Positions 1-4,640 of a stretch of 37,977 bases of DNA are shown here, piece by piece. How positions within the stretch are numbered: the stretch's first letter is position 1; every line of letters begins with the position of its first letter. A program made the translations under genes and the position numbers. This DNA comes from Microcaldota archaeon (lineage in GTDB: Archaea; Micrarchaeota; Micrarchaeia; Micrarchaeales; CABMGC01). Under the pieces are notes generated by a model. That model had not been told where the DNA came from. It worked only from the letters and a program-made list of their open reading frames with translations, and searched no databases. Location of the stretch: the NCBI GenBank assembly GCA_021789155.1, contig JAJYJW010000008.1, forward strand, positions 1 to 37,977, written 5' to 3'.

Positions 1-1117
1 AGCACAACCCTATCTAAGCTTGATGGGCGGAGCCGAACGGGTAGTGCTCAAGATCGCGCAGCATTACAATGCGAAGATATACACCTTGGAATACGTAAGG
101 GACAAGACTTTCAAGGAATTTCAGGACGTTGACATAGAGTTGATAAGCAAGAAGCTTCCGGCATCCTCAATAATCCCGTACAGGGCATCGCGGGCAATGG
201 CATTCGGATACGCGTTTTACAATCTCAAGTTGAAGAATGACTATGACGTGATAAACGCGCACGTATCACCGAGCGAATGGATAAGGCACAACAACAAGCG
301 GGTATTCTGGTATTGCCACACTCCGGTGAGAGAGGTTTATGATCTTTACTCTTTCAGGATGAAGAACAGGTCTTACAAGGACAAACTCATATACGCTACA
401 TTCGCCGGAGCGTACAAGTTCATAGCCAAAGACGTGATAAAGCAGATAGAAGCCATAGCAACGAACAGCGATAACGTTAATGGCAGGATAATGAAATACT
501 TCAACAGGAGCGCCACGGTAATTCACCCGGGTGTGGAATACGAGCAATTCGAGAACAAAGGCGATGACAAGTATTTCTTCTACCCATCAAGGTTCTATCC
601 GAACAAAAGGCAGGATCTTGTGATGGACGCTTTCGCAAGATTCGTGAAAAAAAGCGGAAAGGAGAATTACAAGTTGATACTCGCGGGAAGCATATCCGAC
701 GATAAGGAGCACATAGCGTATCTTGAAAGGCTGAAGCAGAGGAAAATGAAAAACGTCGAGTTCAAGCTTAACCTTCCAGATGAGAAGATACGCGAACTTT
801 ACTCGAATTGCACCGCGGTGATGTTCGCTCCGATAAACGAGGATTTCGGGATAGTGCCTTTGGAGGGAATGTCAAGCAGCAAACCGGTGATAAGCATAAA
901 CGACGGAGGGCCGCGCGAGGTAATAAAGGACGGGAAGACGGGCTTCCTGGTAAACAACACGGACGAGATGGCGGAAAAGATGCAGTACGTAGTGGATCAC
1001 GGCGATGTGGCGGATTCGATAGGCAAAGCTGCGAGGAACGCAGTGGAGAGGGAATTCTCATGGGACGCGTTCTTCAGGAAGTTCGATAAGATCGTTGCGC
1101 AGGTAGCCAAGGCATAA
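1..1117 (+). CDS. Glycosyltransferase family 4, 5'-truncated by window edge
   Basis: This is a GT-B fold glycosyltransferase that would transfer a sugar from an activated donor in lipid-linked glycan, exopolysaccharide or protein-glycan synthesis at the cytoplasmic membrane face. The reading frame is open to the left edge: codons before the TTG at 20 read AQPYLS and continue into the typical N-terminal GGAERVV motif, so the true start lies outside the window. The C-terminal half has the family signatures: the donor-site region YPSRFYPNKRQDL, the E-x7-E element EDFGIVPLE, and GGPREVI followed by GKTGFLV. It ends 5 nt from the convergent LamG gene. The sugar specificity cannot be read from sequence; a role in glycosylating the neighbouring surface proteins is possible but only inferred from position. 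Confidence 0.9.
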   Translation, partial: AQPYLSLMGGAERVVLKIAQHYNAKIYTLEYVRDKTFKEFQDVDIELISKKLPASSIIPYRASRAMAFGYAFYNLKLKNDYDVINAHVSPSEWIRHNNKRVFWYCHTPVREVYDLYSFRMKNRSYKDKLIYATFAGAYKFIAKDVIKQIEAIATNSDNVNGRIMKYFNRSATVIHPGVEYEQFENKGDDKYFFYPSRFYPNKRQDLVMDAFARFVKKSGKENYKLILAGSISDDKEHIAYLERLKQRKMKNVEFKLNLPDEKIRELYSNCTAVMFAPINEDFGIVPLEGMSSSKPVISINDGGPREVIKDGKTGFLVNNTDEMAEKMQYVVDHGDVADSIGKAARNAVEREFSWDAFFRKFDKIVAQVAKA

Positions 1118-2001: not shown

Positions 2002-2889
2002 TTAAGGTGCGTAGTAATTGGATGCCCAACTGCTTGTGAACGTGATCGAACTCGGGGTTCCGCTGTTCCCGTTTCCCGAATAGTCTTTAACGTCGCCGTT
2101 CAAAGGCCACCACGCAGTAATATTGTTTAGCTGCACCGGTGCGCCGCCTATGCCCTCGTTGTACAGAGTGGTTATTTCATTTGAAGATAACGAGGAATTG
2201 TATATTTGAACGTTTGATATCATGCCATTGAAATTTAAAACCGGAGAGGTTCTTCCCGGGGCTTTTCCTATACCTGTGTTCTGCGTACTTGAAGGGAATA
2301 TTATGGCTCCGCTATTTGACTGCTTACCGTTAACGTAAAATATCGCCGAGGTTATGCTCGAAGTGAGCGCAACAAATGCCCAGCTTCCTGCGCATACATT
2401 GTCCGAACTGTATATTGTTGTCAGGCCGTTTGTGACGTATGTTGTGCTGCAGCGCGTGCTGCCATACCAACCAAACTCGTAACCCCCATTTCCTCCAGAA
2501 TCGGTTCTCGCCACTATCTGACCATAACTGCCATATGGGTTAACTGGATAGCTTGGATTTATCCATGCAGTTATAGTAAACGTGCTGCCTGCAAGATTCA
2601 ATACTGTCGGATTTCCCATGTCGACATATGTGGTATGTCCGTCGAATTTCGCTACGTACTGTGGCAATTCGCCGCTGCAAGCGCCTTCCATGTTTATGAA
2701 TCTTGTTGTGCTCGGACCATCCGGACGAATTATTTGACATGAACCTGGAGTGGCTTTTGGGGCAAACGTAGAAAGATTGAAAATCCCGAGTTGGAATAGA
2801 GCGCCCAGAACTACTGCTATGATGAGGATTGCCCAACCGTAGGTCATCAGGTATTCCATTGCGCTCTGGATGTGTATTTTGCTGTGCAT
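2002..2889 (-). CDS. Pilin-like LamG-domain surface protein (paralog 2)
   Basis: This is a paralog of the next gene downstream, 295 residues long. The N-terminal segment after QSAMEYL is identical to that of the sister protein through ALFQLGIFN, and the PGxC, LPQYV and EGIGGAP blocks and the C-terminal partial LamG unit (WWPLNGDVKDYSGN) are also shared. The central LamG region differs strongly in sequence and in Cys placement, suggesting different ligands on a common scaffold. The residues before the QSAMEYL cleavage motif are only MHSKIHI, a short leader for a prepilin peptidase. The gene begins 42 nt after the stop of the TBP-like gene and may be co-transcribed with it, since I see no convincing TATA element in that gap. 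Confidence 0.8.
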   Translation of the reverse strand: MHSKIHIQSAMEYLMTYGWAILIIAVVLGALFQLGIFNLSTFAPKATPGSCQIIRPDGPSTTRFINMEGACSGELPQYVAKFDGHTTYVDMGNPTVLNLAGSTFTITAWINPSYPVNPYGSYGQIVARTDSGGNGGYEFGWYGSTRCSTTYVTNGLTTIYSSDNVCAGSWAFVALTSSITSAIFYVNGKQSNSGAIIFPSSTQNTGIGKAPGRTSPVLNFNGMISNVQIYNSSLSSNEITTLYNEGIGGAPVQLNNITAWWPLNGDVKDYSGNGNSGTPSSITFTSSWASNYYAP

Positions 2890-2931: not shown

Positions 2932-3264
2932 TTATTTTGCGCTTCTGGAAGGTTCTTCGATGACGTATTTTGATATTACCTTTGTTGCATATTCCAATGC
3001 TTTTGCAACATCCTTCTTTGTGCTTGCGCCAGTGCATATGAGTTTTCCTACCTTGAATAGAATTATGACAGTTTTTGGTTCCTTAATCCTGAATATCGCA
3101 CCTGGAAATTGCTCGGGCTCGTAATCTACTTCCTTGACCTCTTTTGAGAGGGTGTAAAGATCTATGGTTGCGTGGAAATCGGCACTAACCACTATATTCT
3201 GTATCTTAATCGGAGGTTTAGTGTTCAACGTATTCCTGCTACCCTTATCCTCTTGAGCTGCCAT
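2932..3264 (-). CDS. TATA-binding protein-like protein with a single TBP repeat
   Basis: The protein matches one half of archaeal TBP. Normal TBP (about 180-200 residues) has two repeats that form the DNA-bending saddle; this protein has 110 residues and one repeat at about residues 19-100. The hallmarks are clear: IQNIVVSAD (21-29), YEPEQFPG (48-55), IFRIKEPK (57-64), ILFKVGKL (68-75) and CTGAS (77-81), including the Phe of QFPG and the Phe of IFRI that wedge into DNA in TBP. No second repeat is encoded on either side: the next gene upstream ends 24 nt beyond the first possible ATG. I chose the ATG at 3264 rather than 3288 because the TATA-like box at 3291-3299 places transcription start near 3268. 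It would have to act as a homodimer, or do something other than basal initiation. Confidence 0.85.
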   Translation of the reverse strand: MAAQEDKGSRNTLNTKPPIKIQNIVVSADFHATIDLYTLSKEVKEVDYEPEQFPGAIFRIKEPKTVIILFKVGKLICTGASTKKDVAKALEYATKVISKYVIEEPSRSAK

Positions 3265-3290
3265 GTAATCACTATTCTTACTATGCATTG

Positions 3291-3299
3291 CTTTAAATA
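3291..3299 (-). promoter_or_regulatory. TATA box of the TBP-like gene
   Basis: On the minus strand this reads TATTTAAAG, about 31 nt upstream of the ATG at 3264. That is the spacing expected for an archaeal TATA element and a nearly leaderless transcript. It is the main reason for preferring the ATG at 3264. Confidence 0.55.
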
Positions 3300-3311: not shown

Positions 3312-4565
3312 TCAAAAGTCTATGTTTAATCTGTCCCCAACCTCAGGCACATGCACGGTAAAGCCCTTTTCCCTCAATTCCTGCGCTAGGTTATCCGAAT
3401 TCTCGTGCTCCGCGTGCAGGCATATCACTGTTTCTGGAGAACTCTTGTCTACGTATTCAAGCAGGTCGCTCTTATCCGAATGCGCAGACATATTGTAAAA
3501 CGACATCTTATTCTTAACTTCGAAATCATGATCCTCTAACCTTATGGGTTTGCCGTTCATGAGCTTCCTGCCGTTTGTACCCTCTACCTGATAGCCAGTA
3601 AGGAATATCTTCGATGCGGGATTTATTTTTGTAATGTAATCTACAACCGGACCGCCGTTAAGCATCCCCGCAGTAGTGACTATTATGCCCGAGAGCGCTT
3701 CATCCCTATCCTGCTTTCCCTTAACCCAGTGGCAGCGTTTTGCTGCGCTGATAAGGTTTCCGGGGTTTTGCAGATATTCCCGATTGTTCATTATTATCTG
3801 CGTGGCTTCCCTTGACATTCCATCCAAGTACACTTTGTCTATGAGTCCTGCTTTGTAGAACATGACTAGGAGCTCCTGCGCTCTGCCAACGGCAAAACTA
3901 GGCACAAGGGCTGTGCCCCCATTGTCCAGAGTTTCCCTGACCTCCTGCACGAATTTCTTGATTAGCTCTTCCCTGTCTGGATGCTCTGAATTGCCATATG
4001 TCGCTTCCATGATCAACGTGTCGCTCTTCACAACTTTTGCCTTGTTTTGGAGCAGCTGATCGGAATATTTGAAATCTCCGGTGTACGCAAGCACTTTATC
4101 GCTTCTTGAATGCCTGAGCTCGGTTATTGCGCTGCCCGGAATGTGCCCCGCATCGTGCAATGTTATCGAATAATCTCCTATGGAAAATTCCCTTTCGTAA
4201 CTGCAGGGAACGAACCTATTCATCATGTCCTTGAAATCTCTTCTAGTAAATTTCGGCCTGTTGTGCGTTTTACGACCTATGCTTATCGAGTCGTCTATCA
4301 AAAGTTCCCCGAGCTCTCTAGTAGGTTCGGTGCCGAACGTAACTGGTATTCCTTGCGAATACAATAATGGAACTGCGCCTATGTGATCAAGGTGCGCGTG
4401 GCTTACAACGCATGCGGCAACCTCCGGAACCATTATCGGATATTCTATGCTGTCTTCTACCTTAACCCCGTAATCTAGCATTATTTTCTTCTGTCCATTC
4501 AACAGTATCGCAGACCTTCCTACTTCTCCAGCGCCACCTAGAAAATTTATCTCCAATTTAACCAC
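3312..4565 (-). CDS. Beta-CASP metallo-beta-lactamase RNase, aCPSF2 type
   Basis: This is a zinc-dependent ribonuclease of the CPSF73-like group, acting in the cytoplasm in RNA processing or decay. From the chosen GTG start it has 417 residues, the usual size for aCPSF2, and it lacks the N-terminal KH domains of aCPSF1. Visible motifs are FLGGAGEVGRS (8-18), the metal-binding SHAHLDH (55-61), DAGHIPGSA, and the C-terminal MSAHSDKSDLL and LHAEHE elements that complete the beta-CASP active site. The ATG at 4622 would add 19 unconserved residues; the GTG at 4565 sits 30 nt from a TATA-like box and begins exactly at the family's N-terminus (VKLEINFLGG). It is divergent from the winged-helix gene at 4641. 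An aRNase J assignment is less likely because of the EVGRSAILL start. Confidence 0.85.
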   Translation of the reverse strand: MVKLEINFLGGAGEVGRSAILLNGQKKIMLDYGVKVEDSIEYPIMVPEVAACVVSHAHLDHIGAVPLLYSQGIPVTFGTEPTRELGELLIDDSISIGRKTHNRPKFTRRDFKDMMNRFVPCSYEREFSIGDYSITLHDAGHIPGSAITELRHSRSDKVLAYTGDFKYSDQLLQNKAKVVKSDTLIMEATYGNSEHPDREELIKKFVQEVRETLDNGGTALVPSFAVGRAQELLVMFYKAGLIDKVYLDGMSREATQIIMNNREYLQNPGNLISAAKRCHWVKGKQDRDEALSGIIVTTAGMLNGGPVVDYITKINPASKIFLTGYQVEGTNGRKLMNGKPIRLEDHDFEVKNKMSFYNMSAHSDKSDLLEYVDKSSPETVICLHAEHENSDNLAQELREKGFTVHVPEVGDRLNIDF

Positions 4566-4590
4566 GATAGGTAAAATATGCAGATACGTT

Positions 4591-4600
4591 CTTATATTTC
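4591..4600 (-). promoter_or_regulatory. TATA box of the aCPSF2 gene
   Basis: The minus strand reads GAAATATAAG, centred 30 nt upstream of the GTG at 4565. The element is nearly symmetric in A/T content and lies about 45 nt upstream of the divergent ATG at 4641, so it could influence both directions. Confidence 0.5.
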
Positions 4601-4640
4601 TGCTTGTTAAGAGTAATCGCAAAACTTAAAAGTAGGTTGC

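Follow-up and report, generated by a model that had tools for sequence, protein, structure and literature searches.

One-lobed TATA-binding proteins as the apparent sole TBPs of a large clade of Micrarchaeota

TATA-binding proteins (TBPs) are described as two-lobed in both archaea and eukaryotes (PMC7221094). The window analyzed here, 37,977 nucleotides of contig JAJYJW010000008.1 from a Microcaldota archaeon (assembly GCA_021789155.1), encodes a TBP with one repeat, termed TBP-B herein, and raises the question of whether such a half protein is an artifact or a working TBP and, if the latter, how one lobe could do the work of two.

A complete TBP lobe encoded by a single-repeat gene

Pfam PF00352 (TBP) matched TBP-B once (residues 27-108, E=1.9e-25, profile positions 2-85 of 85), and its longest open frame, which extends to the ATG at 3288 (2932-3288, minus strand, 118 aa), held one complete TBP repeat and nothing further, rather than the two tandem repeats that form a pseudodimer in one chain. 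The top phmmer match in the PDB was the TBP of Sulfolobus acidocaldarius (E=9.9e-39), to either lobe of which the repeat could be aligned. The AlphaFold2 model formed one TBP lobe with a core pLDDT of 95-98, and Foldseek matched it to many PDB TBPs, most at ~1.1-1.4 Å over ~84 residues; TBP-B thus has both the TBP/helix-grip lobe fold and the PF00352 profile. The motifs QNIV, YEPEQFPG, EPK, LF..GK, and ICTGA were all present. Against the NCBIfam full-length TBP models TBP-B scored 88.3 bits, below the cut-off of 278 as expected at half length, and these cut-offs were also missed by a two-repeat relative (L103).

We consider the 110-aa start the better one, because a TATA core, TATTTAAA, lies 35 nt upstream of that ATG by computed offsets and the spacing is similar in relatives, where TATA-like cores were found at the expected distance; similar cores also precede the TBP genes of related loci. 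The preliminary description, made from sequence without database searches, had proposed a complete single repeat with TBP motifs, intact flanks, and no frameshift remnants. Profile, model, and motifs bear this out, and the genes on either side, encoding a beta-CASP RNase and a laminin-G-like protein, are intact (Table 1). Neither a frameshift remnant nor a second repeat was found adjoining TBP-B, and the predicted lobe speaks against the absence of a TBP fold, the other outcome named there as fatal to the idea. Sequencing error or truncation of a two-repeat gene was ruled out by the same architecture in 59 relatives. Contamination is an unlikely source of the contig, since TBP-B orthologs adjoin a conserved glycosyltransferase in many relatives.

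That glycosyltransferase is the conserved neighbor of TBP-B in most sampled loci of two family-level groups (f1 and f2); within the window, two pilin-like laminin-G genes stand between them. These two adjacent genes (1123-1974 and 2002-2889, minus strand) have nearly identical pilin-like N-termini (SAMEYLMTYGWAILIIAVVLGALFQLGIFN), and laminin-G-like genes of similar type also lie beside TBP loci in several relatives. A tblastn search with the beta-CASP ribonuclease returned no match in the other sampled TBP-A or TBP-B loci (TBP-A being the second TBP of this genome, described below), so the association of ribonuclease and TBP-B is not conserved.

Table 1. Features of the window around TBP-B
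Feature	Position	Strand	Remarks
TBP-B, single-repeat TATA-binding protein	2932..3264	-	110 aa from ATG 3264; PF00352, AlphaFold2, Foldseek
TATA-box core of TBP-B	3292..3299	-	TATTTAAA; read off the sequence, consensus match only
Metallo-beta-lactamase/beta-CASP/RMMBL ribonuclease	3312..4622	-	PF07521, PF10996, and PF16661 above cut-off; just upstream of TBP-B
Laminin-G-like protein, archaellin/pilin-like hydrophobic N-terminus	2002..2889	-	PF13385, E=2.7e-21; downstream of TBP-B
Glycosyltransferase	20..1117		Similar gene directly follows TBP-B in many relatives

Two single-repeat TBPs and one ordinary TFB

The genome of this archaeon (796 kb, 90% complete) contained exactly two PF00352 genes at E<=10, both single-repeat, and no two-repeat TBP at that threshold, which answers the first check proposed in the preliminary description. 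The second gene, TBP-A, has ribosomal protein L21e on one side and pelota on the other, a single gene separating it from pelota, and its product is 45% identical to TBP-B over 91 residues. The genome encodes a single, ordinary TFB with a Zn ribbon and two cyclin repeats, and a TATA core precedes both TBP-B and TBP-A.

Orthologs in related Micrarchaeota had been proposed as a further check, and the single repeat proved to be conserved across the clade. We searched 60 relatives, 37 listed as the same family (that of the genome itself included) and 23 as the same order. TBP was present in 59 of the 60; all full matches reported were single repeats, each with an open frame to itself, and none of the 60 showed an intact two-repeat TBP. 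Most of these genomes are incomplete drafts, such that a gene may be missing from any one of them, though not across all 60. Two TBP genes were carried by most relatives and only one, single-repeat, by several; the genomes with TBP-A only include a 97%-complete assembly of three contigs and a single-contig genome. In one relative (G016, L113, C39, minus strand, at a contig end), a partial second repeat precedes the single-repeat TBP-A in frame; a short linker joins it to the last ~31 residues of what is otherwise an identical copy, and 99 of the first 100 bases match. We read this as either a recent tandem fusion, kept in frame in some strain, or a loop introduced by assembly where the contig ends.

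One locus with one repeat or two

At the phylum level, 223 genomes were searched and sequences were read from representatives of the family-level groups other than f7, f8, f10, and f11. Single-repeat TBPs occurred in 15 such groups of the class (f1, f2, and f14-f26) and two-repeat TBPs in at least seven (f3, f4, f5, f6, f9, f12, and f13); the named relatives with such sequences are Candidatus Micrarchaeota. A second group, the 19 genomes of the phylum to which the genome holding L131 belongs, contained a mixture of single-, double-, and even four-match open frames. The last of these is found in G246 (C8:9538-10695, plus strand), where four TBP matches fall within a 726-residue open frame, its relatives in the group being single-repeat; another open frame of that genome, on C3, has 377 residues and two TBP matches.

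Two other records deserve mention on their own. One f2 genome (G202) encodes a canonical-looking two-repeat TBP (L106, C43:2733-3251) with an N-C identity of 0.44 in addition to two further TBP matches; we attribute it to either contamination or horizontal transfer. In Vulcanisaeta sp. JCM 14467 (L158), a canonical TBP is split over overlapping frames (3989-4297 and 4249-4572), likely by sequencing error, since the RpoB match of that genome is likewise broken in two, with in-frame stops.

By tblastn of neighboring genes, most f1 and f2 loci have L21e next to TBP-A in divergent orientation; L21e also lies beside the single-repeat gene in most sampled f14-f20 loci and in f22, and beside the two-repeat TBP in sampled f3-f13 loci. 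Among the loci sampled from f21 and f23-f26, none showed L21e next to TBP. TBP-A, with its single repeat, and the two-repeat TBP of the class are positional counterparts, and the number of repeats at the L21e-adjacent locus switches between one and two within the class. On average, the N and C repeats of one protein were more alike in Micrarchaeota (identity 0.68) than in Diapherotrites (0.57) or canonical archaeal TBPs (0.49).

Contact residues and a proposed dimer

The residues by which a TBP engages its partners were retained almost without exception. The dyad Asn, both wedge Phe residues, and the first acidic stirrup residue were kept in 127 of 127 single repeats, and the second acidic stirrup residue was Glu in 126 and Asp in 1. 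Ravarani et al. 2020 (PMC7221094) described an acidic pair (C.L3.2 and C.L3.4) as the TFB/TFIIB-contact signature of the C lobe; we assigned it to the EPE of YEPEQFPG from the description in that paper. As nearly every single repeat has this pair, a dimer would offer two TFB-competent stirrups.

We regard it as probable that the general TBP of these archaea is single-repeat TBP-A acting as a dimer, and that TBP-B is an alternative TBP that forms its own homodimer or pairs with TBP-A. The assignment of the general role to TBP-A follows from its position, as the same L21e-adjacent locus holds the two-repeat TBP elsewhere in the class. In several near-complete genomes one single-repeat gene is the only TBP gene, which points naturally to a dimer that restores the saddle: the protein would have to act either as a homodimer or as a monomer that leaves half of the TATA box unbound. 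The central beta strands of two half-saddles would pair to give the usual saddle, in which the Phe pair, present twice, would bend TATA DNA. Of the two identical YEPEQFPG stirrups on such a dimer, one would bind the single ordinary TFB, and TFB/BRE contacts would set the direction of transcription as in other archaea. Dimerization, TATA binding, recruitment of TFB, and the division of labor between TBP-A and TBP-B are our expectations from sequence and models. A fused two-repeat micrarchaeal relative was predicted to form a full saddle (TM ~0.84-0.88 to archaeal TBPs), a model which shows that closely similar micrarchaeal repeats may pack in this way when fused.

TBP-B itself is a paralog specific to the order that has all of the same contact residues, and would most likely serve as an alternative TBP. 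The TBP-A proteins of genomes with TBP-A only and those of genomes with both genes were indistinguishable (0.82 between the two sets versus 0.85 and 0.81 within them). TBP-A therefore does not seem to need TBP-B, which was probably added as an alternative TBP.

The same comparison bears on a second explanation, in which TBP-A and TBP-B form an obligate heterodimer that replaces the N and C lobes of a canonical TBP. Both genes occur in most f2 genomes and in about half of the sampled f1 genomes, the two proteins are only ~50% identical, and in matched f1 genomes they are equally conserved (0.81 and 0.82). In consensus, moreover, the residue before the dyad Asn is E in TBP-A and Q in TBP-B, like that of the canonical N and C lobes. 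However, TBP-B is missing from whole f1 genera (several, in which all sampled genomes have the single gene), so TBP-A suffices there, and it is unchanged in genomes that lack TBP-B. Families with one single-repeat gene must likewise manage without a second, and the tree of repeats gave no support for placing TBP-A with the canonical N or TBP-B with the canonical C repeats. We therefore consider an obligate pair unlikely.

The preliminary description had also suggested a paralogous regulator. The first half of that suggestion stands, as TBP-B is a paralog and a housekeeping-looking single-repeat copy lies at L21e; the regulatory half, in which TBP-B would titrate TBP-A by heterodimerizing or would block promoters, ranks low with us and seems distinctly improbable. 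A lineage-specific paralog that is missing from several genera and has its own promoter-like TATA core would be in keeping with regulation, yet TBP-B keeps every DNA- and TFB-contact residue, none of which a titrating protein needs. Least credible is a lone TBP domain in a role outside transcription, such as nucleic-acid binding of the kind known from RNase HIII or DNA glycosylases: single TBP-like domains do occur in RNase HIII (PMC7221094, PMC12917281) and TBP-B has a weak similarity to its N-domain (DUF3378, 17.6 bits versus a cut-off of 27, with no nuclease or other domain), but by sequence TBP-B is a TBP proper and not an RNase HIII domain, its TFB-contact residues are retained, and a single-repeat gene is the sole TBP of the genomes with TBP-A only.

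Promoter flanks

A symmetric dimer of TBP-A might be mirrored in promoter sequences, and the genome-wide TATA motif was examined in relatives' genomes, using crude gene calls that gave ~80-115 sites per genome. In G002, which has TBP-A only (L248-L267), the core was TWTWWAWA and A at -3/-4 was mirrored by T at +3/+4. The symmetry was weaker and biased upstream in G028, another TBP-A-only genome of the same genus, and mild in G062, a two-repeat micrarchaeon; in G230, a canonical euryarchaeal genome, the flank signal lay upstream only. We take these observations as a lead toward a symmetric TBP rather than as evidence for one. The preliminary description had presented direction set by TFB and BRE as a consequence of symmetry; for archaeal TBPs with two repeats, TFB and BRE are already accepted as setting direction (PMC7289017), so this would not set a symmetric TBP apart.

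Origin of the single repeat

The preliminary description had called for placing the repeats in a tree, and in an unrooted phylogeny of 151 repeats (90 columns) the single repeats fell outside the canonical N and C groups. The tree resolved three groups, namely canonical N, canonical C, and the micrarchaeal plus Diapherotrites repeats, the branch around the last having 97% SH-aLRT support. Because the tree is unrooted, three histories fit it: retention of a single repeat that predates the duplication, loss of one repeat followed by re-duplication, and homogenization of two repeats. Likeness to the ancestral state, as proposed in that description, is thus not supported in that form: it corresponds to only one of three rootings, and within the class a single locus holds now one repeat, now two.

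In the RpoB tree, the single-repeat f21/f23/f25 formed the first branch within the class, two-repeat genomes lay outside it, and five changes of repeat number were required overall. Ordinary N-with-N orthology of the micrarchaeal repeats was not rejected (AU test, p=0.231), so we do not claim an independent origin of the micrarchaeal N repeats. One duplication for all micrarchaeal two-repeat TBPs was recovered in 0 of 200 bootstrap trees, though it withstood the AU test (p=0.104), and the N and C repeats of f12 grouped together (98/95); from these sequence comparisons, a single duplication appears disfavored. We favor reduction to one repeat in the lineage, followed by re-duplication or homogenization, as likelier than ancestral retention. 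That Micrarchaeota and the second phylum-level group retain a pre-duplication repeat, with their two-repeat TBPs arising from separate later duplications, is a history to which we give little credence.

Comparison with known systems

No description of a single-repeat TBP in DPANN or Micrarchaeota was found in the open literature searched. Proteins of one TBP domain were reportedly noted in some archaea by Brindefalk et al. 2013 (NAR 41:2832). A large archaeal clade whose apparently sole TBP is one lobe provides natural half-saddles for testing old questions: what purpose the fused asymmetry serves, whether repeat number can fall and rise again, and whether transcription can be initiated by a symmetric TBP when TFB and BRE are the only source of direction.

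TBP-like domains are known outside the classical factor, in poxviral proteins and RNase HIII, and a monopartite ancestor has been proposed (PMC12917281). The poxviral factors are bi- or tripartite and the domain of RNase HIII lies inside an enzyme (PMC12917281), whereas TBP-B is free-standing and corresponds to half of a TBP. With the archaeal two-repeat TBPs of S. acidocaldarius (1MP9), Pyrococcus woesei (1PCZ/1AIS), and Methanocaldococcus jannaschii (2Z8U), TBP-B shares the fold, the DNA-wedging Phe residues, the dyad Asn, and the TFB-binding stirrup; it differs in having one repeat, not two fused, and would need an intermolecular partner. The two-repeat TBPs of f3, f4, f5, f6, f9, f12, and f13 are usually L21e-adjacent like TBP-A and have the signature FPGAI...LLLFKNGK.IC.G in common with the single-repeat TBPs, but differ from them in their tandem fusion. 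A locus that holds a single repeat or a pair of near-identical repeats, depending on the family, constitutes a natural series for such questions.
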